Shown here piece by piece: positions 3,692 through 43,553 of a DNA stretch of 64,000 nucleotides (the stretch's first letter is position 1; each line of letters starts with the position of its first letter). The notes below the pieces were generated by a model. The model did no database searches, was not told the origin of the DNA, and saw only the letters and a program-made list of their open reading frames with translations. Source of the DNA: Amycolatopsis thermophila (GTDB lineage: Bacteria; Actinomycetota; Actinomycetes; Mycobacteriales; Pseudonocardiaceae); assembly GCF_030814215.1 (NCBI RefSeq), contig NZ_JAUSUT010000001.1:5704001-5768000 (forward strand), read 5' to 3'. A program made the position numbers and the translations under genes.

Positions 3692-3830
3692 ACCTCCGGC
3701 CCCCTCGCCGGTCACGCTGGACACCGGAGCACCCGACGTGGAGGACGGAGATGACCGGCGCAGCACTGGTCCGGACGGGCGGCCGTGAGTGGATCCCCGT
3801 GCCGGCGCGCGGGTTGAACTGAGGTGCGCG

Positions 3831-4409
3831 ATGACGGCCCCCGTCTCCCCGCTCCTCCGGTTCTGGCGACTGCTGCGCCCGGGCGGGCCGCTCGCGCGTC
3901 CGTGGGACCGCTGGGAGGCGCGCCTGCTGATCGCCGCGATCCTGCTGGCCCTTCTCGCCGTGCCGGTCTCGGGCGCGCTGGCGTCGGACGTCTACGGGCG
4001 GCAGGCGGAGGTCGCGCGGGAGCAGCAGGCCGACCGGACCCGGGCGAGCGCACTGCTGCTGGCCGACGCGGACCCGTTCGTGACCGGCGGACCGGCCGCC
4101 CAGGTGGACGAGGTCCCGGCGCGCTGGCTCCTGCCGGACGGCACCGACCGCACCGGATCGCTGCAGGTCCCGGCGGGCACGCACCGGGGTGCGCGGGTGC
4201 CGATCTGGATCGACCGGACGGGGGAGCCGGTCCCGCCGCCGCTGTCGACGTTCAACGCGCTGAGCATCGCGCTCAGCATCGCCCTGCTCGTGTGGCTCGG
4301 CGTGGTACTGGCCCTGGCGTTCGTCGTGTTCGTGGTGCACTTCGCGCTCGACCGTCTGCGCGCGGCGGCCTGGGCCCGGGAATGGGAGACCCTCGGCAGC
4401 GACCGATGA
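3831..4409 (+). CDS. Rv1733c-like membrane protein
   Basis: A 192-aa protein with one membrane segment near residues 33-52 (LLIAAILLALLAVPVSGALA) and a second near 145-170 (IALSIALLVWLGVVLALAFVVF), flanking an extracytoplasmic part of about 90 residues. The layout and the segment APVSPLLRFWRLLRPGGPL resemble Rv1733c-type proteins, whose mycobacterial members belong to the DosR dormancy regulon; function unknown. I start at the ATG at 3831, seven bases after GAGG; an upstream in-frame start at 3789 lacks a ribosome site. The gene converges with dosR. Confidence 0.75.
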   Translation: MTAPVSPLLRFWRLLRPGGPLARPWDRWEARLLIAAILLALLAVPVSGALASDVYGRQAEVAREQQADRTRASALLLADADPFVTGGPAAQVDEVPARWLLPDGTDRTGSLQVPAGTHRGARVPIWIDRTGEPVPPPLSTFNALSIALSIALLVWLGVVLALAFVVFVVHFALDRLRAAAWAREWETLGSDR

Positions 4410-4464
4410 CCGCTCCCGGGAACACCTCCACGGTGTATAACGCCCTATACGGCGCGGCTTTGTC

Positions 4465-4482
4465 GCGACCTATTCAGGTCGC
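4465..4482. terminator. Hairpin over the end of dosR
   Basis: GCGACCT and AGGTCGC pair across ATTC, a 7-bp stem that includes the dosR stop codon. It lies between two convergent genes. No U-tract follows, as is usual in such GC-rich DNA. Confidence 0.35.
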
Positions 4483-5123
4483 TGCAGCTTCCCCGCCGGG
4501 CGCAACTTCGTCGCAAGGACGGCGGCCTGGGTCCGGCGCTCGAGCCCGAGTTTGGTGAGCAGCCGGGAGACGTAGTTCTTCACGGTCTTCTCCGCCAGGA
4601 ACATCCGCTCGGCGATCTGGCGGTTGGTCAGGCCTTCGCCGATGAGCTCCAGCAGGGTCCGTTCGCGGTTGCTGAGGGCGGCCAGCGGGCCGGTCTCAGC
4701 GGCGTCGGCGCGCAGCTTCGCCATCAGGGTGGCCGCTGCGCGCGTGTCGAGCAGCGACCGTCCCGATCCGACCTCACGCACGGCGGACACCAGCTGGAGC
4801 CCCTGGATGTCCTTGATGACGTAGCCGCCGGCGCCGGCGAGGATCGCGTTGAGCATGGCCTCCTCGTCGGTGTAGGAGGTCAGGATCAGCACGTTCAGCT
4901 CGGGCAGCCGGGACCGCAGCTCGCGGCACAGCTCGATGCCGTTGCCGTCGGGCAGCCGCACGTCGAGCACGGCCACGTCGGGCCGCAGCGCCAAGATCCG
5001 GGAGAGGGCCTGGGCCGCGGTCGACGCTTCGCCGACGACGGTCAGCCCGGGGTCGGTCTCGAGGAGGTCGCCGACCCCGCGTCGCACGACCTCGTGGTCG
5101 TCGACGAGAAAGACCTTGATCAC
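4470..5123 (-). CDS. dosR: DosR/DevR-type response regulator (NarL/LuxR family)
   Basis: A 217-aa two-component regulator, the same length as M. tuberculosis DosR. The receiver domain has the acidic pair D8-D9 and the phospho-acceptor D54 in [15 protein letters not shown]. The C-terminal LuxR-type helix-turn-helix reads [25 protein letters not shown] without gaps relative to DosR. In mycobacteria this protein is phosphorylated by haem kinases under hypoxia, NO or CO and switches on dormancy genes. The GTG at 5123 follows AAGGGA. A strong DosR box at 5204-5223 sits about 80 bp upstream, suggesting autoregulation. Its probable partner kinase is encoded at 6318-8042, separated from it by an alcohol dehydrogenase gene. 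Confidence 0.95.
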
Positions 5124-5203
5124 GCCGTCATCCCTTCCGACCGACGGAACCCACCCAGGGTACGGGCGGCCGCACCCCGGGCAGGCGGCCTTGGTCCCGA
5201 ATC

Positions 5204-5223
5204 GTGGGGACCAAGGTCCCCAA
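5204..5223. promoter_or_regulatory. DosR box upstream of dosR
   Basis: GTGGGGACCAAGGTCCCCAA matches the mycobacterial DosR consensus TTSGGGACTWWAGTCCCSAA at 17 of 20 positions (mismatches at 1, 9 and 12). An overlapping inverted repeat, TTGGTCCC at 5191-5198 with GGGACCAA at 5207-5214, may form a second half-site arrangement. It lies about 80 bp before the dosR start and just past the end of the alcohol dehydrogenase gene. Confidence 0.75.
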
Positions 5224-5249
5224 CCGAGTGGTTCGCCTCGCCCGCCCGT

Positions 5250-6248
5250 TCAGGGCCGGAGAACCGCCGCGCCGCGGACCCGGCCCGCGGCGAGGTCGGC
5301 CAGCGCCTGGTCGGCCTGGTCGAGCGCGTACTCCGTGGTCACGACGCGCAGCGGGTGCTCGGCGGCAAAGCCGAGGAACTCACGCGCGTCACGGCGGGTG
5401 GCGGAGGTGACGCTGCGCAGCGTGCGCTCCTGGAACAGGTGCCGCTGGTAGTGCAGGGCCGGGACGTCGGTGAGGTGGATGCCGGCCACGGCGAGTGTGC
5501 CGCCGCGATCGAGGGCCGCCAGTGCGGGCGGCACGAGGTCTCCGGACGGGGCGAACAGGATCGCCGCGTCGAGCGGTTCCGGTGCCGGGTCCTCGGCGTC
5601 GCCCGCGGAGGTGGCGCCGAGGTCGAGCGCGAGCTGCCGGGCGCGGTTGCTGCGGGTCATGACGTGCACGGTGGCACCTTCGGCCAGGGCGACCTGGGCG
5701 GCCAGGTGTGCGCTGGCGCCGAAGCCGTAGATCCCGAGCCGCCCGCCGCGGGGCAGTTCGCTGCGGCGCAGGGCGCGGTAGCCGATGATCCCGGCGCACA
5801 GCAGGGGCGCCAGCTCGGTGACGGAATAGCCGCCGGGCAGCCGGTGCGCGTAGGCGGCCGGGACGGTCGTGAAGCGGGCGTAGCCGCCGTCGTCGTCCCA
5901 GCCGGTGTAGCGCGAGTCCGGGCAGAGGTTCTCGGCGCCGCGGCGGCAGTACCGGCACTCGCCGCAGGTGCCGCGCAACCAGGCGGCGCCGACGCGGTCG
6001 CCGGGGGTGAACCCGGTGACGTGCGGGCCGAGGGCGGCGACCTCGCCGACCACCTCGTGGCCCGGGACCACACCGCCGCGGTGTACCGGCAGGTCGCCTT
6101 CGACGACGTGCAGGTCGGTGCGGCAGACCCCGCACGCGAGGACGCGCAGGAGCAGGTCCCCGCCGGCGACGTCGGGGACCGGTTCGTTGCGCAGTTCGAA
6201 CTTGCGGGTGCCCGGAGGGCCGGGCCGGAACACTCGCCAGGCGTGCAC
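5250..6248 (-). CDS. Zinc-dependent alcohol dehydrogenase (AdhA type)
   Basis: A 332-aa medium-chain dehydrogenase. Catalytic zinc ligands are seen in [10 protein letters not shown] and PGHEVVG, and structural-zinc cysteines in [18 protein letters not shown]. The coenzyme site shows the glycine motif GIYGFGAS. It resembles the zinc-binding alcohol dehydrogenase family that includes mycobacterial AdhA (Rv1862), which interconverts alcohols and aldehydes with NAD(P)H. The start is a GTG at 6248. A DosR-like dyad 33 bp upstream (6281-6300) and its place between dosR and the sensor kinase suggest hypoxic induction, perhaps for NADH reoxidation. Physiological substrate unknown. Confidence 0.88.
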
Positions 6249-6280
6249 GGTTCCAGCGTGGCCGAGCCCGGCGCCCGCGG

Positions 6281-6300
6281 TTAGGGCCGAAGGGCCCGAG
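6281..6300. promoter_or_regulatory. DosR-like box upstream of alcohol dehydrogenase
   Basis: TTAGGGCCGAAGGGCCCGAG matches the DosR consensus TTSGGGACTWWAGTCCCSAA at 14 of 20 positions, including both GGG/CCC cores and the central AA. It lies 33 bp upstream of the GTG of the alcohol dehydrogenase gene, where an activator could contact RNA polymerase. Confidence 0.5.
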
Positions 6301-6317
6301 CGCTGGTGCGGGCCAGG

Positions 6318-8078
<1,761 letters not shown>

Positions 8079-8220
8079 TCAAAAGCGTCCACGCGGTGGG
8101 CGATCGTGGTCGTGGAAAGGGCACAAAGACCCCGGGCGCGGTGACGCCGGGCCCTCGTGCGGGGTGGGGTGCGGGGGGACAGTGGGGTGATCCTGGTCCC
8201 TTCGTGGCCTGGAGGTCCGG

Positions 8221-9138
8221 ATGTCTCTCGCGAGCCAGGACCCGGTCAGGGCCGCACTCGACGCGGCGATCCGTGCGCCGTCGCCCCACAACAGCCAGCC
8301 GTGGCGGTTCCGGGTGTGCGGTGACCGGATCGACGTGGTGCTCGACGGCGACCGGATCCTGAAGGTCGCCGATCCGGAGGGGCGGGAGGCGCGGCTGGCC
8401 TGTGGGGCGGCGATCCTGAACGTGCGGCTGGCGTTGCGCGCCGCGGGGCGGGTGCCGGTGGAGGAGCTGATGCCGCGGCGGGACGCTCCGGAGCACCTGG
8501 CGACGGTGCGGCTCGGCGGGTGGCGGCCGGCGACGACGGACGATCTGGCGCTGGCGCGGGCGATCGGGTACCGGCGCAGCAACCGGCGCGCGTTCACGTC
8601 GCGGGAGGTGCCGGTGTGGGTGCGGCAGGCGCTGGTGCGGGCGGCGGCCGAGGAGGGCGCGGACCTGGTGGTCGTCCACGACGCCGGGCGGCTGGCGGAG
8701 CTGGAGGTGCTGGTGCGGGAGGCCGAGCGGTTGCAGGCGGAGGATCCGGCGTTCCAGGAGGAGGTGCGGCGGTGGACGGCGACGGACCCGTCGCGCGAGG
8801 ACGGGGTGCCCGCCGCGGTGGTGGGGCGGGGGCCGGAGTGGCCGTACGACCGCAGGCCGCTGGTTGCGGTGCTGGTCTCCGGTGCGGACACGCGGCTGGA
8901 GCAGGTGCGGGCCGGGCAGGCGTTGCAGCGGGTGTTGCTGCGGGCGACCACGGCCGGGGTCAGTGTGTCGTTCGTGTCGGAGCCGGTGGAGATCCCGTTG
9001 TTGCGGGCGGCGGTGGGCCGGCTGGCCGCGGTGCCGGGGTCGCCGCAGGTGGTGCTGCGGTTCGGGTACGGGTTCGCGGCTCCGGCGACGCGGCGGCGCC
9101 CGGTGTCGGCCGTGACGCGTTACACCGGTGGGGGTTAG
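8221..9138 (+). CDS. Acg-family nitroreductase-fold protein
   Basis: A 305-aa protein with the Acg/Rv3131 signature PSPHNSQPWRF near the N-terminus, YRRSNRRAFTSREVP in the middle and a second nitroreductase-like half. Acg (Rv2032), Rv3127 and Rv3131 are DosR-regulon proteins of M. tuberculosis. Acg binds FMN but has a lid over the active site and is thought to sequester flavin rather than reduce nitro compounds. The ATG at 8221 follows GGAGGT at 8211. Upstream there is only a partial DosR half-site (GGTCCC at 8195-8200). The gene diverges from the kinase gene across 178 bp. Confidence 0.9.
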   Translation: MSLASQDPVRAALDAAIRAPSPHNSQPWRFRVCGDRIDVVLDGDRILKVADPEGREARLACGAAILNVRLALRAAGRVPVEELMPRRDAPEHLATVRLGGWRPATTDDLALARAIGYRRSNRRAFTSREVPVWVRQALVRAAAEEGADLVVVHDAGRLAELEVLVREAERLQAEDPAFQEEVRRWTATDPSREDGVPAAVVGRGPEWPYDRRPLVAVLVSGADTRLEQVRAGQALQRVLLRATTAGVSVSFVSEPVEIPLLRAAVGRLAAVPGSPQVVLRFGYGFAAPATRRRPVSAVTRYTGGG

Positions 9139-9167
9139 CGGGGGCCGCGGCGGGGCATCTGTGCGGC

Positions 9168-9596
9168 ATGTCCGTTGACGATTCTCTGCCGACGCTGCGC
9201 CGGCTGGCCGACCTGGCGGAGCTGCTGATCCCCGGCGTGGTGGTCTACGTGCGGTATTCGCCGGGCCCGGAGTCCGATGCCGGGCACCCGAGCACCGACC
9301 ACGAGAGCGGGCTGGAGATGCCGGGGGTGTCGGTCAACCCGCTGAACGCGCCGGGCTGGTGGTCGTTGCCGGTGGAGGACTGGCTGGCGCGGCGGATCTG
9401 CCAGTACCTGCACCAGCAGCGGGAGGGGGCGCGGCCGTGGGTGCTGACCGGCAAGGAGGTGGACTTCGGGCCGGACAACGAGCCGCTGCTGGTGGACGTC
9501 GAGCCGATCGCGTGGATCGCCGACGAGCTGGTGGAGGAGGCGCGGGATCGGTACCACTCCCGGCTGGACGCGGGGCGCTCGACGCACGAAGATTGA
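9168..9596 (+). CDS. DUF6098-like conserved protein
   Basis: A 142-aa soluble protein beginning MSVDDSLPTLRRLADLAELL. It contains VVVYVRYSPGPESD, ESGLEMPGVSVNPLNAPGWW and VEDWLARRICQYLHQ, the pattern I associate with the actinobacterial DUF6098 family. Its function is unknown. The reading frame is open far upstream, but the ATG at 9168 lies just after the Acg-like stop and fits the family start. It sits between the Acg-like gene and the formate dehydrogenase operon on the same strand, so co-expression is likely. Confidence 0.7.
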   Translation: MSVDDSLPTLRRLADLAELLIPGVVVYVRYSPGPESDAGHPSTDHESGLEMPGVSVNPLNAPGWWSLPVEDWLARRICQYLHQQREGARPWVLTGKEVDFGPDNEPLLVDVEPIAWIADELVEEARDRYHSRLDAGRSTHED

Positions 9597-9650
9597 TCGT
9601 AGGTGTTTCGCGCGCCGGGTGATCGGGAATGCGGGGCCGGGAGGTGAGCG

Positions 9651-12600
9651 ATGGGCGTGGGTGACTGGCTGCGGCGGTGGCCGGTGTACCGGCAGCTGAC
9701 CGGGGACGACCGGCTGGGCCGGGGCGCGGCGGCGCAGTCGGCGCGGTCGCACTCCCTGATGCCGCGGACGGCTTCGGCGGACCGGGTGGTGCATTCGGTG
9801 TGCCCGTACTGCGCGGTGGGGTGCGCGCAGAACGTGTACGTGAAGGACGAGCGGGTCGTCCAGATCGAGGGCAACCCGGATTCGCCGATCTCCCGGGGCC
9901 GGTTGTGCCCGAAGGGGTCGGCGAGCAAGCAACTGGTGACCGGGCCGCAGCGGGTGGAGAAGGTGCTCTACCGCGCGCCGTACGGCACGCAGTGGCAGGA
10001 GCTGGACCTGTCCACGGCGATGGACATGGTGGCCGACCGGGTGCTGGACGCGCGGCGCAAGGGCTGGCAGGAGACCGACGAGCGGGGCAACCGGCTGCGG
10101 CGGACGATGGGTCTGGCGAGCCTGGGCGGCGCGACGCTGGACAACGAAGAGAACTTCCTGATCAAGAAGTTGTTCACGGCGCTGGGCGCGATCCAGATCG
10201 AGAACCAGGCCCGTATTTGACACTCCGCCACGGTTCCCGGTCTGGGAGCCTCCTTCGGTCGCGGTGGTGCGACGGACTACCAGCAGGACCTGGTCAACGC
10301 CGACTGCGTGTTCATCATGGGCTCGAACATGGCCGAGGCCCATCCGGTGGGGTTCCAGTGGGTGATGGAGGCCAAGGCGCGGGGCGCGAAGGTGTTCCAC
10401 ATCGACCCGCGGTTCACGCGCACGAGTGCGCTGGCGGACCGGCACGTGCCGTTGCGGGCGGGGTCGGACATCGCGTTCCTGGGCGGGGTGATCAACTACA
10501 TCCTGTCGAACGGGCTGGAGTTCCGGGAGTACGTCACGGCGTACACGAACGCGCCGTTCCTGGTGAGTGAGGAGTTCCGGGACACCGAGGACCTGGACGG
10601 GTTGTTCAGCGGGTACGACCCCGAGACGGCGTCGTACGAGACGGCGAGCTGGCACTACGAGAGCGCGCGGCCGCGGGAGGGCCGGGGCGCGCGGGCGAAG
10701 GAGCAGTCGGCGCCGGACCAGCACGGGTCGGGCGGGCCGTCGGTGGAGGGTGCCGCGGACGAGATCGCCGCGGATCCGACGCTGGAGCACCCGCGGTGCG
10801 TGTTCCAGATCCTCAAGCGGCACTTCGCGCGGTACACGCCGGAGATGGTGGAGCGGACCTGCGGGGTGCCGGCCGAGGTGTTCCTCGAGGTGTGCCGGGC
10901 GTGGACGGAGAACTCGGGGCGGGACCGCACGGCGGCGCTGGTGTACAGCGTGGGCTGGACGCAGCACTCGATGGGTGCGCAGTACATCCGGGCGGGGTCG
11001 ATCATCCAGTTGCTGCTGGGCAACATCGGGCGGCCGGGTGGCGGGGTGTTCGCGTTGCGCGGGCACGCCTCGATCCAGGGATCGACCGACATCCCGACGT
11101 TGTTCAACCTGCTGCCGGGTTATCTGCCGATGCCGGACACCGGTCACGGCGACATCGGCGAGTACCTGCACCTGGTGCGCGGTGACCGGCAGAAGGGGTT
11201 CTGGCGCAACGCCGACGCGTACCTGGTGTCGTTGCTGAAGGAGTACTGGGGCGACCACGCGACGGCCGAGAACGACTGGTGCTTCGACTACCTGCCGCGG
11301 ATCAACGGCGATCACGGCACCTACCGGACCGTGATGGACATGATCGACGGGAAGGTGTTCGGGTACTTCCTGCTCGGGCAGAACCCGGCGGTGGGGTCGG
11401 CGAACGGGCGGTTGCAGCGGCTGGGCATGGCGAACCTGGACTGGCTGGTGGTGCGGGACCTGGCGATGATCGAGAGCGCCACGTTCTGGAAGGACTCGCC
11501 GGAGATCGAGTCCGGGGAGATCGTGCCGGAGCGGTGCCGCACCGAGGTGTTCTTCTTCCCGGCGGCCTCCCACGTGGAGAAGTCCGGTACGTTCACCCAG
11601 ACGCAGCGGATGCTGCAGTGGCGGGACAAGGCCGTCGACCCGGCGGGTGACCAGCGCAGTGAGCTGTGGTTCTTCTACCACCTGGGCCGGATCCTGAAGG
11701 AGAAGCTGGCGGGGTCCACCGACGAGCGGGATCGTCCGCTGCTGGACCTGTGGTGGGACTACCGGATGGAGGACGGTGACGAGCCCTCGGCCGAGGACGT
11801 GCTGCGCCGCATCAACGGGGTGGACCTGGAGACCGGGCGTGCGCTGAACGGGTACCTGGAGCTGAAGGCCGACGGCAGCACCCTGTGCGGATGCTGGATC
11901 TACAGCGGCGTGTACGCCGATGAGGTGAACCAGGCGGCGCGCCGCAAGCCGCACGACGAGCAGGGCCCGTACGAGTCGGAGTGGGGCTGGACGTGGCCGT
12001 TGAACCGGCGCGTGCTCTACAACCGGGCGTCGGCCGATCCGCAGGGCCGCCCGTGGAGCGAGCGGAAGAAGCTCGTGTGGTGGGACGCGGAGAAGGGCGA
12101 GTGGACCGGGCACGACGTGCCGGACTTCGAGAAGACCAAGCCGCCGGGCTTCCGGCCGGAGCCGGGGGCGGTGGGACCGGACGCGCTGCACGGTGACGAC
12201 CCGTTCGTGATGCAGTCCGACGGCAAGGGCTGGTTGTTCGCGCCGAACGGGGTGCTGGACGGGCCGCTGCCCACGCACTACGAGCCGCACGAGTCGCCGG
12301 TGCGCAACCCGTTGTACGGGCAGCAGGGCAACCCGGCGCGGAAGGTGTACCCGCGGGTGGACAACCCGTCGAACCCGGCGCCGCCGGAGCGGCTCGGCGA
12401 GGTGTTCCCGTACGTGTTCACCGCGTCGCGGCTGACCGAGCACCACACCGCGGGTGGGATGAGCCGTCAGTTGCCGTACCTGGCGGAGTTGCAGCCGGCG
12501 TTGTTCGTGGAGGTCTCGCCGGAGCTGGCGGCCGAGCGCGGTCTGGTGCACCTGGGCTGGGCGCACGTGGTGACGAGCCGGTCGGCGGTGGATGCGCGGG

Positions 12601-12911
12601 TGTTCGTCACCGAGCGGATGCGGCCGCTGCGGATCGAGGACCGGGTGGTGCACCAGATCTGGATGCCCTACCACTGGGGGCAGACCGGCCTGGTCGACGG
12701 TGACGTGGTGAACGACCTGCTCGGGGTGGTGGCGGATCCGAACGTGTTCATCCAGGAGAGCAAGGTGGCCACCTGCGACATCCGGCCCGGCCGCCGCCCG
12801 CGCGGCCCCGGCCTGCTGGCCTACCTGGAGGAGTACCGGACGCGGGCGGGGATCACGGTGGCGACGGGGACGCACCTCGACACGGCAGGCGGCGCGGAGG
12901 GGCGGTCATGA
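9651..12911 (+). CDS. fdhA: Selenocysteine-containing formate dehydrogenase, catalytic subunit
   Basis: A 1086-residue molybdopterin oxidoreductase read through the in-frame TGA at 10218-10220 as selenocysteine 190. The N-terminal 4Fe-4S cysteines are C51, C54, C58 and C86. TGA falls in NQARI-U-HSATV, exactly where respiratory formate dehydrogenases have Sec or Cys in NQARV-U-H, and the frame continues without another stop to 12911. A SECIS-like hairpin follows at once. The enzyme oxidises formate to CO2 at a Mo/W-bis-MGD centre and passes electrons to FdhB. I see no twin-arginine signal, so a cytoplasmic-side active site is likely. The ATG at 9651 follows GGGAGGTGA. Reading the TGA as stop would give two useless fragments. 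Confidence 0.93.
10218..10258 (+). promoter_or_regulatory. Selenocysteine insertion element (TGA plus SECIS hairpin)
   Basis: TGA at 10218-10220 is followed 11 bases later by a 7-bp stem, GGTTCCC (10232-10238) with GGGAGCC (10244-10250), closed by the pentaloop GGTCT. CCG at 10225-10227 and CGG at 10256-10258 can extend the stem below. E. coli fdhF has a closely similar layout (UGACAC, then a GGU-bearing hairpin with a GGUCU loop that SelB reads). Confidence 0.85.
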
Positions 12912-13810
12912 CGAACAGCTTCTACGGCCCGCTGGAGGACCCGGCGGGCGAGGCCGGGTACCGGGAGCACCCGCCGCGGATGGGCTTTTTCACCGACACG
13001 TCGGTGTGCATCGGCTGCAAGGCGTGCGAGGTGGCGTGCAAGGAGTGGAACGGGGTGCCCGACGACGGGTTCGACCTGCTGGGCATGTCGTTCGACAACA
13101 CCGGGATGCTGGGCGCGAACTCGTGGCGGCACGTGGCGTTCGTCGAGCAGGAGCGGCCGGGCGCGCGCTCGCCGGAGCCGGTGGACCTGGGGTTGCCGTC
13201 GTTCGACCTGCCGGGCGCCGGCAGCGGAGCGGAGACCCGCACCGACTTCCGGTGGCTGATGAGTTCGGACGTGTGCAAGCACTGCACGCACGCCGGGTGT
13301 CTGGACGTGTGCCCGACTGGCGCGTTGTTCCGCACCGAGTTCGGGTCGGTGGTGGTGCAGCCGGACATCTGCAACGGCTGCGGGTACTGCGTGTCCGGTT
13401 GCCCGTACGGGGTGATCGACCGGCGCGAGGTCGACGGCCGGGCGTGGAAGTGCACGCTGTGCTACGACCGCCTGCGGGACGGGCTGGAACCGGCGTGCGC
13501 CAAGGCGTGCCCGACCGATTCGATCCAGTTCGGACCGCTGGAGGAGCTGCGGGAGCGGGCCGCGCGCCGGGTGGACGCCCTGCACGAGGCCGGGGTGGGC
13601 GAGGCGCGGTTGTACGGCGAGAGCCCGGACGACGGCGTGGGTGGTGACGGCGCGTTCTTCCTGCTGCTGGACGAGCCCGAGGTGTACGGTCTGCCGCCGG
13701 ACCCGGTGGTGCCGACGAAGGACTCGGGGTCGATGTGGAAGTTCGCGGGCGTAGCCGCCTCGGCGCTGGTGGCCGCCGCGGTGTCGGTCTTCTTCGGACG
13801 GGGCGGATGA
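12908..13810 (+). CDS. fdhB: Formate dehydrogenase iron-sulfur (beta) subunit
   Basis: A 300-aa ferredoxin-type electron-transfer subunit with four cysteine clusters: VCIGCKACEVACKEWNGV, VCKHCTHAGCLDVCP, ICNGCGYCVSGCP and WKCTLCYDRL followed by ACAKACPT, enough for four 4Fe-4S centres. A single hydrophobic helix near the C-terminus (FAGVAASALVAAAVSVFF) can anchor it in the membrane next to the NrfD-like subunit. The ATG overlaps the fdhA stop by four bases (ATGA), indicating translational coupling. It carries electrons from FdhA toward the quinone pool. Confidence 0.95.
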   Translation: MTNSFYGPLEDPAGEAGYREHPPRMGFFTDTSVCIGCKACEVACKEWNGVPDDGFDLLGMSFDNTGMLGANSWRHVAFVEQERPGARSPEPVDLGLPSFDLPGAGSGAETRTDFRWLMSSDVCKHCTHAGCLDVCPTGALFRTEFGSVVVQPDICNGCGYCVSGCPYGVIDRREVDGRAWKCTLCYDRLRDGLEPACAKACPTDSIQFGPLEELRERAARRVDALHEAGVGEARLYGESPDDGVGGDGAFFLLLDEPEVYGLPPDPVVPTKDSGSMWKFAGVAASALVAAAVSVFFGRGG

Positions 13811-14751
13811 TGAAGGAACAGGTCGCGGTGCCGCGGGCGGAGTTCCGGTCCTACTACGGGCGGCCGGTGCTCAAGCCGCCGGTGTGGGAGTGGAAGATCC
13901 CGGCCTACCTGTTCACCGGCGGGTTGTCCGCGGGGTCGGCGATGCTCGGCGCCGGGGCGGACCTGACCGGGCGCCCGGTGTTGCGCCGGGCGAGCCGTCT
14001 GGGCGCGCTGGGCGCGCTCGCGGCGAGCCTGTACCTGCTGGTGGCCGATCTGGGGCGGCCGGAGCGGTTCCTGCACATGCTGCGGGTGGCCAAGCCCAGT
14101 TCGCCGATGAGCGTGGGCACCTGGATCCTGGTCGCCTACGGCCCGGGTGCCGGGGTGGCGGCGGTGGCCGAGCTGGTGCCGGCGCGGTGGCGGGGCACGA
14201 TGCCCGGGCGGTTGCTGCGGTGGCTGGCGCGGCCGGCCGGGTTGTCGGCAGCGGCGATCGCGCCCGGCGTGGCGTCCTACACGTCGGTGTTGTTGTCGCA
14301 GACGGCGGTGCCGGGCTGGCACGAGGCCTACCGGCAGCTGCCGTTCGTGTTCACCGGGTCGGCGGCGGCCAGTGGCGCGGGGTGGGGTCTGGTGTTCGCC
14401 CCGGTCGGGGAGGCCGGGCCGGCGCGGCGCCTGGCGGTGGTCGGGGCGGCGGCGGAGGTGGTCGCGTCGAAGGTGATCGACCAGCGTCTCGGGCTGACCT
14501 CCCAGGCCTACACCACCGGGAAGGCACACCGGCTGCGGAAGTGGTCGGAGTACCTGACGCTGGGCGGCGCGGTGGGCGCGCTGGCGGGCCGTCGCAGCCG
14601 GGCCGTGTCGGTCGCGTCGGGGCTGGCGTTGCTGGCGGGCAGCGCGTTGCAGCGGTTCGGGGTGTTCGAAGCCGGTGTGGAGTCCACGAGGGACCCGAAG
14701 TACGTGGTGGTGCCGCAGCGGGATCGGGTCAGCCGGGGGAGCGAGCGCTGA
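13807..14751 (+). CDS. NrfD/PsrC-type membrane subunit of formate dehydrogenase
   Basis: A 314-aa integral membrane protein with about eight hydrophobic segments and the family start WEWKIPAYLFTGGLSAGSAML. VADLGRPERFLHMLRV and SPMSVGTWILVAYG are typical of the NrfD/PsrC family, quinone-interacting subunits without haem. Here it replaces the haem-b gamma subunit of the E. coli enzyme and should link FdhAB to menaquinone. The start is the ATG at 13807, overlapping the fdhB stop; a second in-frame ATG lies at 13810. Its 3' end overlaps the convergent MBL gene by 23 bp. Confidence 0.88.
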   Translation: MMKEQVAVPRAEFRSYYGRPVLKPPVWEWKIPAYLFTGGLSAGSAMLGAGADLTGRPVLRRASRLGALGALAASLYLLVADLGRPERFLHMLRVAKPSSPMSVGTWILVAYGPGAGVAAVAELVPARWRGTMPGRLLRWLARPAGLSAAAIAPGVASYTSVLLSQTAVPGWHEAYRQLPFVFTGSAAASGAGWGLVFAPVGEAGPARRLAVVGAAAEVVASKVIDQRLGLTSQAYTTGKAHRLRKWSEYLTLGGAVGALAGRRSRAVSVASGLALLAGSALQRFGVFEAGVESTRDPKYVVVPQRDRVSRGSER

Positions 14752-15568
14752 GCAGGTTCGCCAGCGAGAAGCTCTCCCCGCGCGCGAGCAGGCGGACGTC
14801 GGTGGCCGGGTGACGTCGCGCGGCCTCGTGCAGGAAGTTCGACACCGGTGAGGTGAACTTGCCGTAGTCGTCGAAGTGCACGGGCACCACGTGGGTGGGG
14901 TTCATCAGCTCCAGCATGCGCCCGCCCTGGTGGTCGTCCATGGTGACCAGGACGCCGAGCACGCGGGTGCCGCCGAGGTGCAGCACGGCGAGGTCGATCT
15001 CGGGGTAGCGGCGGCGGATCTCGGTGAGTTCGTCGTGGATGATGGTGTCGCCGCTGACGTAGATGCGCAGCGTGGCCGCGCCCGGCCGGGCGGTGTACTC
15101 CCAGATGCTGCCCATCACCGGCGGCAGGATCCGGTTCAGCGGGCCGCGGGAGTGGCGGGCCGGGACCGCGGTGACGGTCAGCTGGGCGTCCCCGTCGGTG
15201 AGGGTCTCCCCGCGCCACGTGGGTAGCGCGACGGTGGCCCGGAAGCCGCGCTTGGCCAGGCGGATCGCGGCGTGGCGGGTGGTCAGGATCGGCACGTCCG
15301 GCGGCAGGTCGCGGCGGGCGACGCGGTCGAAGTGGTCGCCGTGCAGGTGGGACAGCACCACCCCGGACAGTTCGGGCAGGTCGGCGATCTGGGCCGCGGG
15401 TTCGGTGCGGCGCCGGGAGACGAGCCCCTGCCCGAAGTAGGACCACTGCCCGCGGTGCAGGAAGTTCGGGTCCGTCAGGACCCGGAACGGCCCCAGCCGC
15501 ACCAGGGTGGTGGCGGTGCCGATGAACGTGAGCGAGTCCGGGGGGAACACACAACCCGGGCTACCCAC
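14729..15568 (-). CDS. MBL-fold metal-dependent hydrolase
   Basis: A 279-aa metallo-beta-lactamase-fold protein of the L-ascorbate-6-phosphate lactonase/NAPE-PLD-like group. It shows the metal motif LSHLHGDHFD, further ligand regions around YVSGDTIIHDE and a late histidine in VVPVHFDDYG. The substrate cannot be read from sequence. The start at GTG 15568 is uncertain; GTG at 15550 is an alternative because homology begins at LTFIGTATTLVRLG. Confidence 0.85.
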   Translation of the reverse strand: MGSPGCVFPPDSLTFIGTATTLVRLGPFRVLTDPNFLHRGQWSYFGQGLVSRRRTEPAAQIADLPELSGVVLSHLHGDHFDRVARRDLPPDVPILTTRHAAIRLAKRGFRATVALPTWRGETLTDGDAQLTVTAVPARHSRGPLNRILPPVMGSIWEYTARPGAATLRIYVSGDTIIHDELTEIRRRYPEIDLAVLHLGGTRVLGVLVTMDDHQGGRMLELMNPTHVVPVHFDDYGKFTSPVSNFLHEAARRHPATDVRLLARGESFSLANLLSARSPG

Positions 15569-36590: not shown

Positions 36591-36594
<4 letters not shown>

Positions 36595-39500
36595 GCGCGG
36601 CTCCCGAGCAGTTCCCACTCGGTCAGCGCGGTGCGCCGCCCGGTCGCCGCGGTGATCCGCAGCCGGTAGGCGCGGTAGGCGCCGGGCTCGGCGATGGTGA
36701 ACGGGCGGGTCTGGCGGCGCCACCGGAACCGCTCGCCGCGCCGCTCGTCCAGCCGCACCCAGGACTGCCCGTCGTCACCCTCCAGCACCCAGTCGCTCGG
36801 GTCGCCACCCCGCGCGGCCGAGGTCAGGGTGTACATCTCGACCCGCGCGGGCTCGCGCACCGCGCACTCGAGGACCGGGGTGCGGGACCGGAAGGTGACC
36901 TGGGTGGCGGCGGTGTCGGCGAACAGCTGCGTGAGGTCGGTGCCGTCGTCGCTGGTGCCGGTGCCGGTCACGTCGGCCAGCGGCGCCCCGCCCAGGGACG
37001 GTGGCGGGTCGCCCCAGTCGGTGGGGGTGTCCGTCACGTCGAACTCCAGGCGTGCGGCGGCGACGAGGTCGGCGTGGGACAGCCAGGTCGAGCCGTGCGG
37101 CTTGCCGTCGATCGTCACGCCCCGCACGTAGGGACCGGTGCCGGGTGCGCTGATCTCCACTGTCCTCCCGTTCTCCAGACGCAGGGTGGCCCGCTCGAAC
37201 AGCGGCGCGGTGAGCACGTAGCCGGGGTTGCCGGGGGCCAGCGGGTACAGGCCGAGCGCGGCGAGCACGTACCAGGCCGACATCTCACCGTTGTCCTCGT
37301 CGCCCGGATAGCCCTGGCCGATCTCACCGCCGGTGTAGCAGCGGGTCAGCACCTCGCGCACGATCGCCTGCGTCTTGGCCGCCGCCCCGGCGTGGCAGTA
37401 CATCCACGGGATGTGGTGGCTGGGCTGGTTGGAGTGGCCGTACTGGCCCATCCGCACGTCGCGCGCCTCGGTCATCTCGTGGATGATCCCGCCGTAGGAG
37501 CCGGGCGCGCGGCCCGTCTCCGGCGTGGCGAAGAACGTGTCCAGTGTGGACTCCAGCGCCGCGCGGCCACCGAGCAGGTCCGCCAGGCCGGCGCCGTCGT
37601 GCGGCACTGAGAACGCGGTGTTCCAGCCGTTGGTCTCGGTGTAGTCGAAACCCCACAGGGCCGGGTCGTAGTGCTCCGGCGCCCAGCGCCACCGGCCGTC
37701 GCGGTGGCGGCCCTGGAAGAACCCGGTGCGCGCGTCGAAGTGGTTGACGTACTGTGCCGCCCGCTGCCGGAAGTAGCGCGCGTTGTCCAGGTACTCGGCC
37801 TTGCCGGTGCGGGCGTGCAGGGCCTCGGAGAGGGCGGCGAGGCCGAAGTCGTTGACACACCCCTCCAGCGCCCACGACAGGCCCTCGTGGGTGGTCAGCG
37901 GGGTGAACCCGAGGAAGATCGACTCGCGCAGCCCCTGCCGCCCCACACTGCGGTTCGGCGGCGTGACGGTGGCGTTGCGGACCGCCGCGTCGTAGGCCGC
38001 GCGCACGTCGAACGTGCGCACACCGCGCAGGTACGCGTCGGCGAACGCGACGTCGGAGCTGGTGCCGGTCATCAGGTTCGCGTAGCCGGGGGAGGACCAG
38101 CGCGAGATCCAGCCACCCTCCCGGAACTGCTGCACGAACCCCTCGATCAGCTCCCCGCACCGGCGTGGTGCGAGCAGCGCCAGCGCGGGCCACACGGTGC
38201 GGTAGGTGTCCCAGAAGCCGTGGTTGACCGACATCGGCCCGTCCACGACCTTCGCCCCGGTCCGGGTGCGCGTGCTCGGCCACCAGCGGCGCCGCACCGG
38301 GCTAGCGTGCCGGAGCCCGCGCCGCGTGCGTTCGTGCCCCGAGTTCGGGTACAGGAACAGCCGGTAGAGGCCGGAGTAGAAGGTGGTCAGCTGATCCGGC
38401 GTGGCGCCTTCGATCACCACCCGGCCGAGCAGGTCCTGCCACTGCGCCCTGGCCCGTTCGCGAACCTGGTCGAAGGTCGTGCCCGCCGGGATCTCCTCGT
38501 CGAGGTTGCGGCGGGCCTGGTCCAGGCTGATCAGCGAGGTGGCGATGCGCAGCTCGACCACCGGCGCGTCGAAGGACAGGTAGCCGGCGCCGGGCCACCG
38601 CAGCCGTTTCCCGCCGGTCGCCGGCCGGTCGAACGTGCCGTGGACGAACATCCGCCGCGCCCCCACCGACAGGCGGCTGCGTGCCCAGGTGTGGCCGGTG
38701 ACCACCCCGCGCGCCGGGTCCACACGCAGCCCGCCGCGCCGGTTGACGTTGTCGAACAGCACCCAGCCGCCATCGCCGGGGAAGGCGAACCGGACGAGGG
38801 CGGCGTGGTCGGCCGGTGCGAGATCGACGGCGATGCCGTTGTCGAAGCGCACCCCGTAGTGGTGCGGCCGGTCGGTCTCGTGGTCGTGTGAGAACGGCAG
38901 CGCCCGCGCCGTCCGGTCCACGGTCACCGGACCGATTCCCGGCAGGAATTGGAACGGGTGCCGGTCGCCCATCCACGGGCTCGGTTCGTGGCTGACGGCG
39001 AAGGCCTGCAGCTCGGGGCGGTTGTCCGCGTTGTTGCGCCGGTGGTACTCGTACAGCCAGCTCAGCGACCCCGCGTCCGTGACCGGCGTCCAGAAGTTGA
39101 ACCCGTGCGGCACCGCGGTGGCCGGGAAGGTGTTGCCGCGGGAGAACTCGTTGCTCGAGTGGGTGCCGCGGGTGGTGCGCACCCAGTCGACCGCGTCCCG
39201 CGGACCGGGCGGCGGCACGTCGGCGATGCGGACGTCGTCGATCCAGCCGGTCACCGGCTCGCCCGGCGGCGGTTCGAGCAGCAGCACGATCGCGCGCGCG
39301 GTGCGCCCCGCGGCCTCGCCGAGGGAGTGCCGCACCAGGTTCCATTGATCGAGGTACAACGTCTTCGACGCGCCGGCCGCCGCCGCCGAGCCGCCGATCA
39401 GGCTGCCGTCGTCCAGTTCGACCGCCAGCGCCACGAACGTGCTGCGCCACGACGGCCCCGCGTCGGACTCCGGGAACACCACATAGGACAGTGCGGTGTC

Positions 39501-39704
39501 CGCACCGATCGGCGCGTCCACTTCGAACAGCACTTGACGTGCGCCTTCGCCGGCGGCGTACCGGGCGGCCCGCAGCCCGGTGAACCCGGCACCGGCCCGG
39601 GCGGCCGGCGCGCGCTCCGGTCCCGCGGCGACGGTGACGACCGGGCCGGTGCGGGGCCGCGGATCACCGTCCTCGAACGAGGAGAAGAAGTGGGTCCGGC
39701 TCAC
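36591..39704 (-). CDS. GH92-family glycosidase without signal peptide
   Basis: A 1037-aa protein of the calcium-dependent exo-alpha-mannosidase family. Conserved blocks: SRGNTFPATAVPHGFNFWTP, NHGFWDTYRTVWPALAL, SSDVAFADAYLRGV, IHEMTEARDVRMGQYGHSN (region of the general acid) and GYPGDEDNGEMSAWYVL (catalytic acidic base region). The C-terminal 120 residues form an F5/8C-like sandwich. It lacks a signal peptide: the N-terminus is MSRTHFFSSFEDGDPRPRT and only 27 bp separate it from the gene upstream, leaving no room for one. It is a close paralogue of the secreted GH92 at 39732. It may act inside the cell or leave by a non-classical route. Confidence 0.9.
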
Positions 39705-39731
39705 GCCGCCTACCGTAACCGGCCACCCCGG

Positions 39732-42700
39732 TCACTTCCCGCCGAGCAGCTCCACCTCCGACAAACCGGGCGCGCCGCCGGTGCTGTCGGTGATCCGCAG
39801 CCGGTAGTGCGCGTAGGCGCCCGGCGTGGCGATCTTGAACGCCCGGGTCTGCCGGCGCCAGGGGAACGTCTCCCCGGACCGGGTGTCCAGCGTCGTCCAG
39901 GACTGCCCGTCGGCCGAGCCCTCCAGTACCCAGCCCCGCGGGTCACCGGCCGCCGCGCCGGAGGTGAGCGTGTAGAAGGTCGCCGCCACCGTCCCGCCCA
40001 CCGGGCAGTCGACCGTGGTGAGCGGGCGGGCATCGGTCGCGGAGGTGTTGTCGAACAGCGGCCCGCCGGGCGTGGTGAGGTCGGCCGGCGGCTGCGGGAC
40101 CTCGTCGCCGTGGGTCAGCGACGGCGGCACGTCGGCGGCGCCGGTGCCCCAGTTGGAGGGGTTCGGGCCCATCGCGAAGTCGAGGGTGGCGCCCCGGGCC
40201 AGCAGGTCGTGCGGCAGCGACGTCGACGACCAGGGCTTGCCGTTCACCCGCAGGCCCTGCACGTAGACGTTGCGGGCGCTGTTCTTCGGCGCGTTGACCA
40301 CCAGGTCCCGGCCGCCCGGCAGGTGCACGGTCGCCTTGGTGAACAGCGGCGACCCGACCGCGTACTCGGGGCTGCCCATCCGCAGCGGGTAGAACCCGAG
40401 CGCGCCGAAGACGTACCACGCCGACATCTCGCCGTTGTCCTCGTCGCCGGCGTACCCCTGGCCCAGTTCGCTGCCCAGGTAGAGCCGGGACAGCGCTTCC
40501 CGCACCCCGGCCTGCGTCTTGGCCGGCTGCCCGGCGTAGTCGTACATGTAGAGGATGTGGTGGCTGGGCTGGTTGGAGTGCCCGTACTGGCCCATCCGCA
40601 CGTCACGGGCCTCGCGCATCTCGTGGATCTGCCCGCCGTAGGCGCCGGGGAACCCGGCGGTCTCCGGGGTGGCGAAGAACTGGTCGAGCTTGCGGCCCAG
40701 CGCCTCGCGCCCGCCGTAGAGGTTCGCCAGGCCCTGCCCGTCCTGCGGCACGGTGAAGGCCATGTTCCAGCCGTCGGTCTCGGTGTAGTCGTAGCCCCAC
40801 GCGCGCGGGTCGTACTGGCCGGCGGGGACGCGGAACCGGCCCGAGGAGTCGCGGCCCTGGAAGAACCCGGCGGCCGGGTCGAACATGTGCACGTAGTTCT
40901 GGGCGCGATCGCTGAAGTACTCGGCGTTCTCCGCGTATTCGCGGCGGCGCGGGTCGTCCGGGGCGGCCTCGTCGGCCAGCTTTCGGGCGAGCATCGCGAT
41001 GCCGAAGTCGTTGAGGTAGCCCTCGAGCGCCCACGACATGCCCTCACCCGTCGAGGCCGGGGTGTAGCCGAGGAAGATCGACTGCTCCAGGCCCTTGCGG
41101 CCGACGTTCTCGTCCGGCGGCGCCACCGTGGCGTTCTTGATCGCCGCGTCGTAGGCGGCCTGCACGTCGAAGCCGCGCACGCCCTTGAGGTAGGCGTCGG
41201 CGAAGGCCACGTCGGAACTGGTGCCGGTCATCAGGTTCGCGTAACCGGGGGAGGACCAGCGGGCGATCCACCCGCCGTCGCGGTACTGCTGCACGAACCC
41301 GTCGATCATCTTCCCGGCCATGTCCGGTGACAGCAGCGAGTAGGCGGGCCAGGTGGTGCGGTAGGTGTCCCAGAACCCGTTGTTGACGTAGATCTCGCCG
41401 TCCACCACCTTCGAGCCGGTCCGGGTCGGCGTGTCCGGCCCCGCCTTCGGCGCGACGGGGCTGGCGTAGGCGTGGCGCGGGCCGCCCGTGGTGCCGACGT
41501 TCTCGAACCCGGAGTTGGGGTAGAGGAACAGCCGGTACAGGTTGGAGTAGAGGGTGGTCAGCTGGTCCTGGCTCGCGCCCTCGACCTCGATCACGCCGAG
41601 CGTCCGGTCCCAGGCGGCCTGCGCGGCGGAGCGGACGGTGTCGAACGCGGTGCCGGCCGGGATCTCCTGCTCCAGGTTCCGCTTGGCCTGGTCGAGGCTG
41701 ATCAGCGAGGTCGCGATCCGCATCGTCACGGTGCCCGAGCGGGCCGGGTCGAACCGCAGGTAGCCGCGCACGTGGTCACGGCCGTCGCCGGGCAGCATCG
41801 ATCCGCCGGTGACCGGCCGGTCGAAGCTCGCGTAGACGAACATGCGGCCCGCGCCGGCGGAGTTGCCGCTGCGCACGTCGGTGAACCCGGACAGCGTGCC
41901 GCTCGCCGGGTCGAGGGTCAGGCCGCCGGCGTCGTTGATGTTGTCGAAGACCAGGTTCGCGTCCGGGCCGGGGAAGGTGAACCGGAACATCGCGGCGTGG
42001 TCGGCCGGGGTCAGCTCGGCCCGGATGCCGTTGTCGAAGGTGACGCCGTAGAAGTAGGGCCGGGCGGTCTCGTTCTCGTGGCGGAACGGGAGTGCGCGGG
42101 CCGCCCGGCCGGCGTCGGGTACGCCGCCGGCGGCCGAGGGCATGACCTGGAAGGTCTGCCGGTCGCCCATCCACGGGCTCGGTTCGTGGCTGAGCGCCAG
42201 CGCCTGCATCGTGGGCAGGTTCTGCGCGTTGTTGCCCTCGTGGTAGCGGTAGAGCCAGTTCATCGACCCGGCGTCGGTCACCGGGGTCCAGAAGTTGAAG
42301 CCGTGCGGCACGGCGGTGGCGGGGAAGTTGTTGCCGCGGGAGAACGTGCTGTTGGCGTTGGTGCCGCGGGTGGTGAGCACGTGGTCGGACAGGTGGTCCA
42401 CCCGCGCCCGCGGTGCGGCCGGGGCGAGCTGGATGTCGTCGAACCAGCCGTTGAACGCGCCCGGCCCGTCCGGGTTGTCGTAGGCGACGAGGACGCGCGC
42501 GACGGTCTTGCCGCGGGCGACGGTGCCGATCGCGCTGCGGACGAGGTTCCACTGGTTGGCGTAGAGCGACTTCGCCGCGCCCTGCCCGCGTGGGGTGAGC
42601 GGGAAGCCGTACTGGTCGAGCGCGCCGAGGTCGGACAGGTAGGTGCCGTCGGTGAACGCGAGGTCCACCGCGACGTTCGTGCTCGGGTACTTCAGGTCGT

Positions 42701-43553
42701 CGCCGGTGAGTTCGGGGAAGACCTTGTAGGACAGCTCGGTGTCCGGGCGCACCGGGACGCGCACGTCGAACACCTTGTTCCAGGAGTAGCCGTGCCGCGC
42801 GGTCTGGGTGCCGCCGTAGTGGAAGGCGCGCAGACCGGTGAACCCGGCGCGTGGTTTGCTCGTGTAGCCGCCGGGCGGGCCACTGTCCGGGTAGGACCGC
42901 ATGGCGGGCAGCGGCGGCGGCGCGGGCTGGTCGTCGGCGAGCAGGAGTTCGGCCAGTTGCACGATGTCGGCGCCGTGGTTGGCGCTGATGTCGAGCCGGT
43001 AGAAGCGGTGGGTGGCGGGGGTGGCGAGGCGGAACTGCCTGGCCTCGAACCGGGCGCCGAACGTCTGCCCGGACTGCGTGTCGAGGGTGGTCCAGGTGGT
43101 GCCGTCGTCGGAGCCCTGCAGCGTCCAGTCCCGCGGGTCGCGCTCGGGGGCGTCGTTGGCCGAGGTCAGGCCGTAGCGGGTGATCGCGACGGGCTCGGCG
43201 AACTCGGCCTGCACCCACCCCGACGAGGCGAACGCGAGCCACTTCGACTCGGGCCGCCCGTCGAGCACGTTGACCGCGACCTCACCGGCGCCGGTGTTCT
43301 CCGCGCTCGCGGTCGCGCCGGTGGCTTTGCCGCGCACGTCACCGGGGATGGCCGAACCGTTGGCGCCGTTGACCCCGGCGGCCCGGGGGGCGCCGTCCGG
43401 CCCGGTCTCCACGGTGTCGGCCCAGTCGGGCGCGGGTTCCCCGGCTTCGAACGACGACGAGAACCGGGCGGGCTGCTGCGCTCCGGCGGGCGGCACGGTG
43501 ACCATCCCGGTGATCAGCAGGGCGGCGACCAGCACGCGAATGGTTCGGACCAT
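39732..43553 (-). CDS. Secreted GH92-family glycosidase with F5/8C domains
   Basis: A 1273-aa exo-alpha-mannosidase-type enzyme. A signal peptide (VLVAALLITGMVTVPPAGA, likely cut before QQP) is followed by an F5/8 type C-like carbohydrate-binding region near residues 75-200 (ESKWLAFASSGWVQAEF). The two-part GH92 catalytic core contains NNGFWDTYRTTWPAYSLL, IHEMREARDVRMGQYGHSN and GYAGDEDNGEMSAWYVF. A second F5/8C-like domain forms the C-terminus. It should release mannose from outside glycans such as fungal mannoprotein or its own mannosylated polymers. ATG at 43553; a GTG at 43583 is possible. It heads the GH92-GH92-FUSC-mdh run. Confidence 0.92.
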   Translation of the reverse strand: MVRTIRVLVAALLITGMVTVPPAGAQQPARFSSSFEAGEPAPDWADTVETGPDGAPRAAGVNGANGSAIPGDVRGKATGATASAENTGAGEVAVNVLDGRPESKWLAFASSGWVQAEFAEPVAITRYGLTSANDAPERDPRDWTLQGSDDGTTWTTLDTQSGQTFGARFEARQFRLATPATHRFYRLDISANHGADIVQLAELLLADDQPAPPPLPAMRSYPDSGPPGGYTSKPRAGFTGLRAFHYGGTQTARHGYSWNKVFDVRVPVRPDTELSYKVFPELTGDDLKYPSTNVAVDLAFTDGTYLSDLGALDQYGFPLTPRGQGAAKSLYANQWNLVRSAIGTVARGKTVARVLVAYDNPDGPGAFNGWFDDIQLAPAAPRARVDHLSDHVLTTRGTNANSTFSRGNNFPATAVPHGFNFWTPVTDAGSMNWLYRYHEGNNAQNLPTMQALALSHEPSPWMGDRQTFQVMPSAAGGVPDAGRAARALPFRHENETARPYFYGVTFDNGIRAELTPADHAAMFRFTFPGPDANLVFDNINDAGGLTLDPASGTLSGFTDVRSGNSAGAGRMFVYASFDRPVTGGSMLPGDGRDHVRGYLRFDPARSGTVTMRIATSLISLDQAKRNLEQEIPAGTAFDTVRSAAQAAWDRTLGVIEVEGASQDQLTTLYSNLYRLFLYPNSGFENVGTTGGPRHAYASPVAPKAGPDTPTRTGSKVVDGEIYVNNGFWDTYRTTWPAYSLLSPDMAGKMIDGFVQQYRDGGWIARWSSPGYANLMTGTSSDVAFADAYLKGVRGFDVQAAYDAAIKNATVAPPDENVGRKGLEQSIFLGYTPASTGEGMSWALEGYLNDFGIAMLARKLADEAAPDDPRRREYAENAEYFSDRAQNYVHMFDPAAGFFQGRDSSGRFRVPAGQYDPRAWGYDYTETDGWNMAFTVPQDGQGLANLYGGREALGRKLDQFFATPETAGFPGAYGGQIHEMREARDVRMGQYGHSNQPSHHILYMYDYAGQPAKTQAGVREALSRLYLGSELGQGYAGDEDNGEMSAWYVFGALGFYPLRMGSPEYAVGSPLFTKATVHLPGGRDLVVNAPKNSARNVYVQGLRVNGKPWSSTSLPHDLLARGATLDFAMGPNPSNWGTGAADVPPSLTHGDEVPQPPADLTTPGGPLFDNTSATDARPLTTVDCPVGGTVAATFYTLTSGAAAGDPRGWVLEGSADGQSWTTLDTRSGETFPWRRQTRAFKIATPGAYAHYRLRITDSTGGAPGLSEVELLGGK

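Follow-up and report, generated by a model that had tools for sequence, protein, structure and literature searches.

Formate dehydrogenase locus

The window, by which we mean the whole 64-kb stretch of DNA analysed, spans positions 5704001–5768000 of a 7.315-Mb single-contig genome and contains a formate dehydrogenase locus. The first gene, fdhA (9651–12911, + strand), encodes a molybdopterin formate dehydrogenase alpha subunit of 1086 aa with a predicted selenocysteine (Sec) at residue 190. As the earlier note had claimed, its frame is continuous save for one TGA, at codon 190 (10218–10220, + strand; context NQARI-U-HS), and the terminal TGA is the sole other stop. FdhA matches the NCBIfam model NF041513 (formate_DH_Act) over its full length (residues 6–1064; 1943.2 bits, cut-off 1400) and carries three molybdopterin-oxidoreductase domains in Pfam, Molybdop_Fe4S4, Molybdopterin and Molydop_binding. 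Nothing notable sets it apart from this family, and fdhA typifies a family of selenoproteins that is already known, being ordinary in kind; that the model has the type 'exception' may, at a guess, reflect the Sec residue. The closest named relative by FdhA, among the 80 listed of 593 confirmed loci, is Amycolatopsis tucumanensis (92%).

Downstream lie fdhB (12908–13810, + strand), encoding the iron-sulphur electron transfer subunit, and fdhC (13735–14751, + strand), encoding an NrfD-type membrane subunit. FdhB contains Fer4_11 and has TIGR01582 (FDH-beta) as its best NCBIfam match at 184 bits, below the cut-off of 334.7, while FdhC matches Pfam NrfD with 57 bits; the mechanical ORF start of fdhC overlaps fdhB, and its true start may be further downstream. 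fdhB stands beside fdhA in 77 of these 80 named loci and fdhC in 70, with some of the loci cut short.

Upstream of fdhA, the interval 3789–9596 encodes a Rv1733c-family protein, a NarL/MadR-type response regulator, a zinc alcohol dehydrogenase, a GAF histidine kinase, an Acg-family (Rv3131) FMN oxidoreductase and a DUF6098 protein, and looks like a dormancy or hypoxia locus. A perfect palindrome, GGGACCAAGGTCCC (5207–5220), lying between the genes for the regulator and the dehydrogenase, resembles DosR/DevR-type sites, and a scan for DosR-like palindromes gave fewer matches than shuffled sequence. A dormancy regulon around fdhA was rejected, the upstream genes being beside fdhA only in A. tucumanensis, one of the 80 named loci listed, several of which end early on the left. 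Elsewhere in the window, 36591–43583 on the − strand encodes a pair of large neighbouring glycosyl hydrolases of family 92, of which one carries an F5/8 type C domain.

The in-frame TGA and its hairpin

In the alignment of the 111 loci first compared, codon 190 falls on the family's Sec/Cys position, occupied by TGA in 95 loci, TAG in seven and a Cys codon (TGC/TGT) in nine. A stop codon at this site in 102 of 111 loci argues that TGA190 is no sequencing error, and thus counts against a misread TGC or TGT at 10218, one of the two possibilities by which the earlier note had allowed its reading to fall.

Behind an 11-nt spacer (10221–10231) lies the putative SECIS hairpin (10232–10250, + strand), with a 7-bp stem formed by 10232–10238 and 10244–10250 (GGTTCCC/GGGAGCC, seven pairs including one G-U) and the loop GGTCT at 10239–10243. 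This layout is as first described in the earlier note, and it is conserved in relatives. Prediction from the single sequence lent the hairpin little. Its folding z-scores against shuffles were −0.02, −0.51 and +0.14 for 45, 51 and 71 nt, meaning that it is not stabler than shuffled sequence, and in 93- and 153-nt contexts it is not predicted, with a mean pair probability in the stem of 0.00–0.01. The Rfam model SECIS_3 (RF01989) aligned end to end at 10215–10273, but its 33 bits (E 4.7e-6 for 201 nt searched) fall short of the gathering score of 63, so that the hairpin is not filed under this Rfam family, and an Rfam search of the 64-kb window gave no match at gathering score. Of the checks that the earlier note had proposed, folding therefore failed to set the hairpin apart and the covariance model matched it below threshold; what bore it out was the further comparison with the loops and stems of relatives. 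Thermodynamic folding was dropped as SECIS evidence, since it equals shuffles and vanishes in long context, and comparison was used instead.

The comparison set of 173 loci combined loci from the bacterial order (30 of the best 150 places, with 60 of the other 120 picked by eye for breadth), named loci and actinobacterial plasmid loci (12 of 148 records), and comprised 164 Sec and nine Cys loci; four of the Sec loci duplicate part of another one, leaving 160 distinct. A loop of the form [AG]GU[CU]U occurs at the same distance in 164/164 Sec loci (160 distinct) versus 0/9 Cys loci, and the inner four stem pairs are intact in 163/164 versus 0/9. Over 111 unique Sec sequences, pairing is seen in 94.3% of stem cells; the best of 500 shuffles reached 89.7%, and slid versions of the stem gave 33–66%. 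Covariation in the stem falls on third positions where changes are synonymous, as at the pair 10235–10247 (third positions of V195 and G199), which is CG in 45 sequences, TA in 33, TG in 16, GT in 10, GC in six and CA in one. In a wider sample of the phylum the hairpin is looser, with the inner four pairs intact in 47/58 and the loops GGTCT (36), AGTTT, AGTCT or GGTTT (16) or others without GU (six). The hairpin was accepted as a SECIS because within the NF041513 family the loop is kept in Sec loci and absent from Cys loci, and because the stem covaries. By loop conservation and covariation, then, the element directly downstream of UGA190 is a bacterial SECIS as predicted by comparative sequence analysis.

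Selenocysteine machinery and its co-occurrence with fdhA

All four genes for Sec incorporation, which the earlier note expected elsewhere in the genome, were found there. In genome coordinates, selD (2838164–2839078, − strand; 391.5 bits, cut-off 125), selA (2839161–2840411, + strand; 431.2 bits, cut-off 267.9) and selB (from 2840420, + strand) lie side by side about 2.87 Mb from fdhA, and the tRNA-Sec gene selC (4497542–4497632, − strand; 73.6 bits, gathering score 47; anticodon UCA by ARAGORN) lies about 1.2 Mb from it. SelB comprises an EF-Tu GTPase and second domain, a SelB beta-barrel and a C-terminal SelB winged helix (PF09107), and was accepted despite scoring 235.6 bits against a cut-off of 242.25 because of this winged helix and the location of its gene next to selA. 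SelD has Cys in its GGGCACK motif, presumably the active-site residue.

In a sample of 90 genomes of the bacterial family, 48 carry the formate dehydrogenase gene over cut-off, 43 with an internal TGA and five without. A selA gene over cut-off is present in all 43 genomes with a TGA copy versus 12 of the 47 others (Fisher p 7e-15, kinship not corrected). Four of the five genomes with a TGA-less copy have no selA over cut-off (one, G219, has a weak match only) and the fifth, G385, has selA. The 12 genomes with selA over cut-off and no TGA copy over cut-off, among them G410 with TGA-containing pieces and G385 with a TGC copy, may carry other selenoproteins.

These observations allow other readings of TGA190 to be weighed. 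If it were a real stop or a sequencing error, fdhA would be a pseudogene or two separate proteins, as mechanical ORF calling suggests by yielding 9651–10220 and 10308–12911; with the stop recurring at the same residue in the relatives, each time together with the hairpin loop, an 1086-codon frame free of any other internal stop, and the Sec machinery present, we regard this as very improbable. Near-cognate readthrough inserting Cys or Trp at UGA190 would fit the existence of homologues with Cys at this site (9/173 actinobacterial loci), and it is just as improbable given that the loop of this family is kept only in stop-codon loci, that selA accompanies every TGA copy in the family sample, and that in G257, the genome checked among those with a TAG copy, a CUA tRNA fits the tRNA-Sec model. 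We are thus highly confident that fdhA encodes a selenoprotein, a conclusion drawn from the reading frame, the site, the hairpin with its covariation, the machinery in the genome and the co-occurrence with selA, all of them features of sequence.

Distribution and annotation

Selenoproteins had been thought rare in mycelial actinobacteria in the earlier note. The NF041513 match is over cut-off in 259 of 397 genomes of the order, and the Sec formate dehydrogenase gene is therefore not rare in this order. Among the best 150 places in the order, counted by eye, 117 have one TGA, 23 one TAG (all in family f16), one has both and nine have neither. More broadly, FdhA has the largest count, 103, among the rows shown of a published table (PMC1794560), and FdhA and SelD are named in an excerpt of a further study as the most widespread bacterial selenoproteins (PMC5029168).

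Nor was the expectation upheld that automatic annotation would probably split such a gene. In RefSeq-derived tables a single CDS spans each of three plasmid homologues with the TGA (L188, L189 and L190), and eight further TGA-bearing plasmid loci, whose gene tables are incomplete, show one CDS (L195) or no feature. Current annotation can thus read through the Sec codon; a 2026 review, in the part available, describes pipelines as still error-prone for selenoproteins (PMC13188914).

Comparison with known systems

FdhA resembles FdnG and FdhF of Escherichia coli in the use of UGA, an 11-nt spacer and a GGUCU-type loop, to which type the SECIS loop of E. coli FdhF presumably belongs. An E. coli formate dehydrogenase gene in our comparison (L193) has the loop AGTCT. 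FdhA differs from FdnG and FdhF in that no twin-arginine signal is visible by eye at its N-terminus.

The Sec formate dehydrogenases of Geodermatophilaceae that use UAG have reportedly been described in an original report. The 19 TAG loci that we took for comparison (family f16) belong to the same formate dehydrogenase family as fdhA and share its hairpin; in G257, the only TAG genome checked, a CUA tRNA scores 66.9 bits against the tRNA-Sec model and is labelled Pyl by ARAGORN. Geodermatophilaceae use UAG for Sec with a CUA tRNA, whereas the present genome uses UGA with a UCA tRNA-Sec; the CUA anticodon of their tRNA-Sec is given in the portion consulted of PMC5330540.

A further system for comparison is that of Actinomycetospora chiangmaiensis, which we take to belong to the same bacterial family as the organism of the window. 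In the sections available of its description, three Sec formate dehydrogenase systems are predicted, and formate builds up to a molar ratio of about 0.6 when selenium is lacking but scarcely at all with selenite, which is needed for full formate removal; formate dehydrogenase, SelD, SelA and SelB were detected at low levels in the proteome (PMC7176365). Its alpha subunits of 1078 (from a clipped table row) and 1089 aa are alike in length to FdhA with 1086 aa, while its table, as far as shown, groups SelA and SelB with the FDH1 cluster (PMC7176365) and the sel genes here are remote from fdhA. Selenium dependence is reported for this relative (PMC7176365); FdhA of the window is known from sequence.

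The codon preceding selenocysteine

Directly before Sec, fdhA has the Ile codon ATT (10215–10217, + strand), the third base of which has a putative role in recoding. Among the 164 actinobacterial Sec loci this −1 codon is ATT in 132, ATA in 30, and GTT and ATC in one each, so that its third base is A or T in 163/164 (159/160 distinct), while the nine Cys loci have GTG or GTC (A/T-ending 0/9). Ile is otherwise encoded by ATC at 97.5% in the first 95 TGA genes. Only two of 1049 codon columns, the Sec codon aside, exceed 70% A/T at the third base, namely the loop codon (100%) and the −1 codon (99.4%); within the order, the A/U at −1 is kept almost as strictly as the U of the SelB loop, in two formate dehydrogenase families and before both UGA and UAG. 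Milder T-endings, still beyond most codon columns of these GC-rich genes, are seen at Arg codon 188 (10212–10214), two before Sec, with CGT in 81/145 TGA loci, and at Gly203 (10257–10259), with GGT in 102/164 loci.

The wider phylum sample, drawn from 60 of the places listed with L273 left out as its site was not resolved, has an A/T-ending −1 codon in 53/58 (ATA 41, GTT 8, ATT 4), the exceptions being ATC (two), ATG, GTC and TTG; in five of these genes third-position GC is just 0.49–0.58, making an A/T ending less telling there. One Thermomicrobium gene has ATA. Proteobacterial Sec loci differ, with GTC in 8/8 and an A/U ending in 0/8 against ATT in fdhA. In a second, shorter formate dehydrogenase family all six Sec genes have ACT, while among nine Cys relatives (~70% identity) eight have ACC or ACG and one, L210, has ACT. 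The GGTCT loop in this family occurs in 6/6 Sec genes and 2/9 Cys genes (L210 and L211), and the inner four pairs are intact in 6/6 and 7/9, respectively, so that the stem does not separate the groups. L210 (genome G079), a Cys (TGC) copy of the short enzyme, still has the GGTCT loop and all seven stem pairs besides the ACT codon, as though Sec had recently given way to Cys and the SECIS had stayed behind as a relict. Recoding of its TGC was considered and set aside, as the UCA anticodon of the G079 tRNA-Sec makes a recent Sec-to-Cys change likelier.

As the A/U ending precedes both UGA and UAG, the pattern is not specific to one release factor, and as it stays while the amino acid varies (Ile, Val, Thr), the constraint looks nucleotide-level. 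The recoding signal may extend upstream to the third base of the −1 codon. Shared ancestry or RNA structure could instead have produced the pattern as a by-product: the sequences share descent and only one tree corrects the counts for phylogeny, a G at this base would partly pair in the predicted fold of the window and lowers the accessibility of UGA, and the rule is broken by 5/58 Sec genes of the phylum sample and 1/164 of the actinobacterial set. A C at the same base, by comparison, leaves UGA accessibility in the window fold unchanged, for which reason RNA folding was rejected as the cause; across 46 Ile columns, the −1 codon included, the median non-ATC share is 1.9% and the next highest 18%; and on a tree of 239 genes (of 242 loci after a length filter, repeated loci included) one parsimony reconstruction with midpoint root gives about 12 switches between ATT and ATA versus four changes to ATC. 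With ACT in every Sec gene of the second family as well, we consider a by-product possible but rather unlikely. A reading of ATT-TGA-CAC as a TTGACA promoter element was also discarded, there being no promoter-like site at 9400–15000 and the hexamer not being kept in the TAG loci.

On balance we lean, by a modest degree, towards a Sec signal in Actinomycetota that has an upstream part, a P-site codon with A/U as third base (AUU, AUA, GUU, ACU), which probably adjusts how Sec-tRNA competes with release factors or how long the ribosome dwells. P-site codons can be decoded by wobble or by lysidine-containing tRNA, and the pattern may stem from weaker termination beside a P-site codon read in this way, from a slow rare codon, or from P-site geometry favouring Sec-tRNA. 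We found no mention of the pattern in open-licence PMC literature, including the available parts of PMC4513850, PMC3834832, PMC12013277 and PMC13188914; subscription papers on stop-codon context in E. coli may bear on it.

Proposed mechanism and implications

We posit that during translation SelB with Sec-tRNA(UCA) would bind the GGUCU-loop hairpin 11 nt behind UGA190, as expected from its family, and that selenocysteine would be delivered there instead of release-factor termination. By analogy with related enzymes, Sec190 would ligate the molybdenum or tungsten of the pterin cofactor, and formate would be oxidised, with electrons passing via the Fe-S clusters of FdhB to the NrfD-type membrane subunit and then to the quinone pool. 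The base before UGA would act as a further cis-element, perhaps weakening release-factor competition or slowing the ribosome, a step to which our high confidence in the selenoprotein does not extend.

The Sec formate dehydrogenase is known biology and a common trait of this actinobacterial order, and the possible new element is the −1 codon preference. Should the A/U third base prove necessary, an upstream cue would escape any SECIS model that begins with the stop codon or later, and a reporter could measure the part that P-site wobble pairing plays in recoding versus termination.
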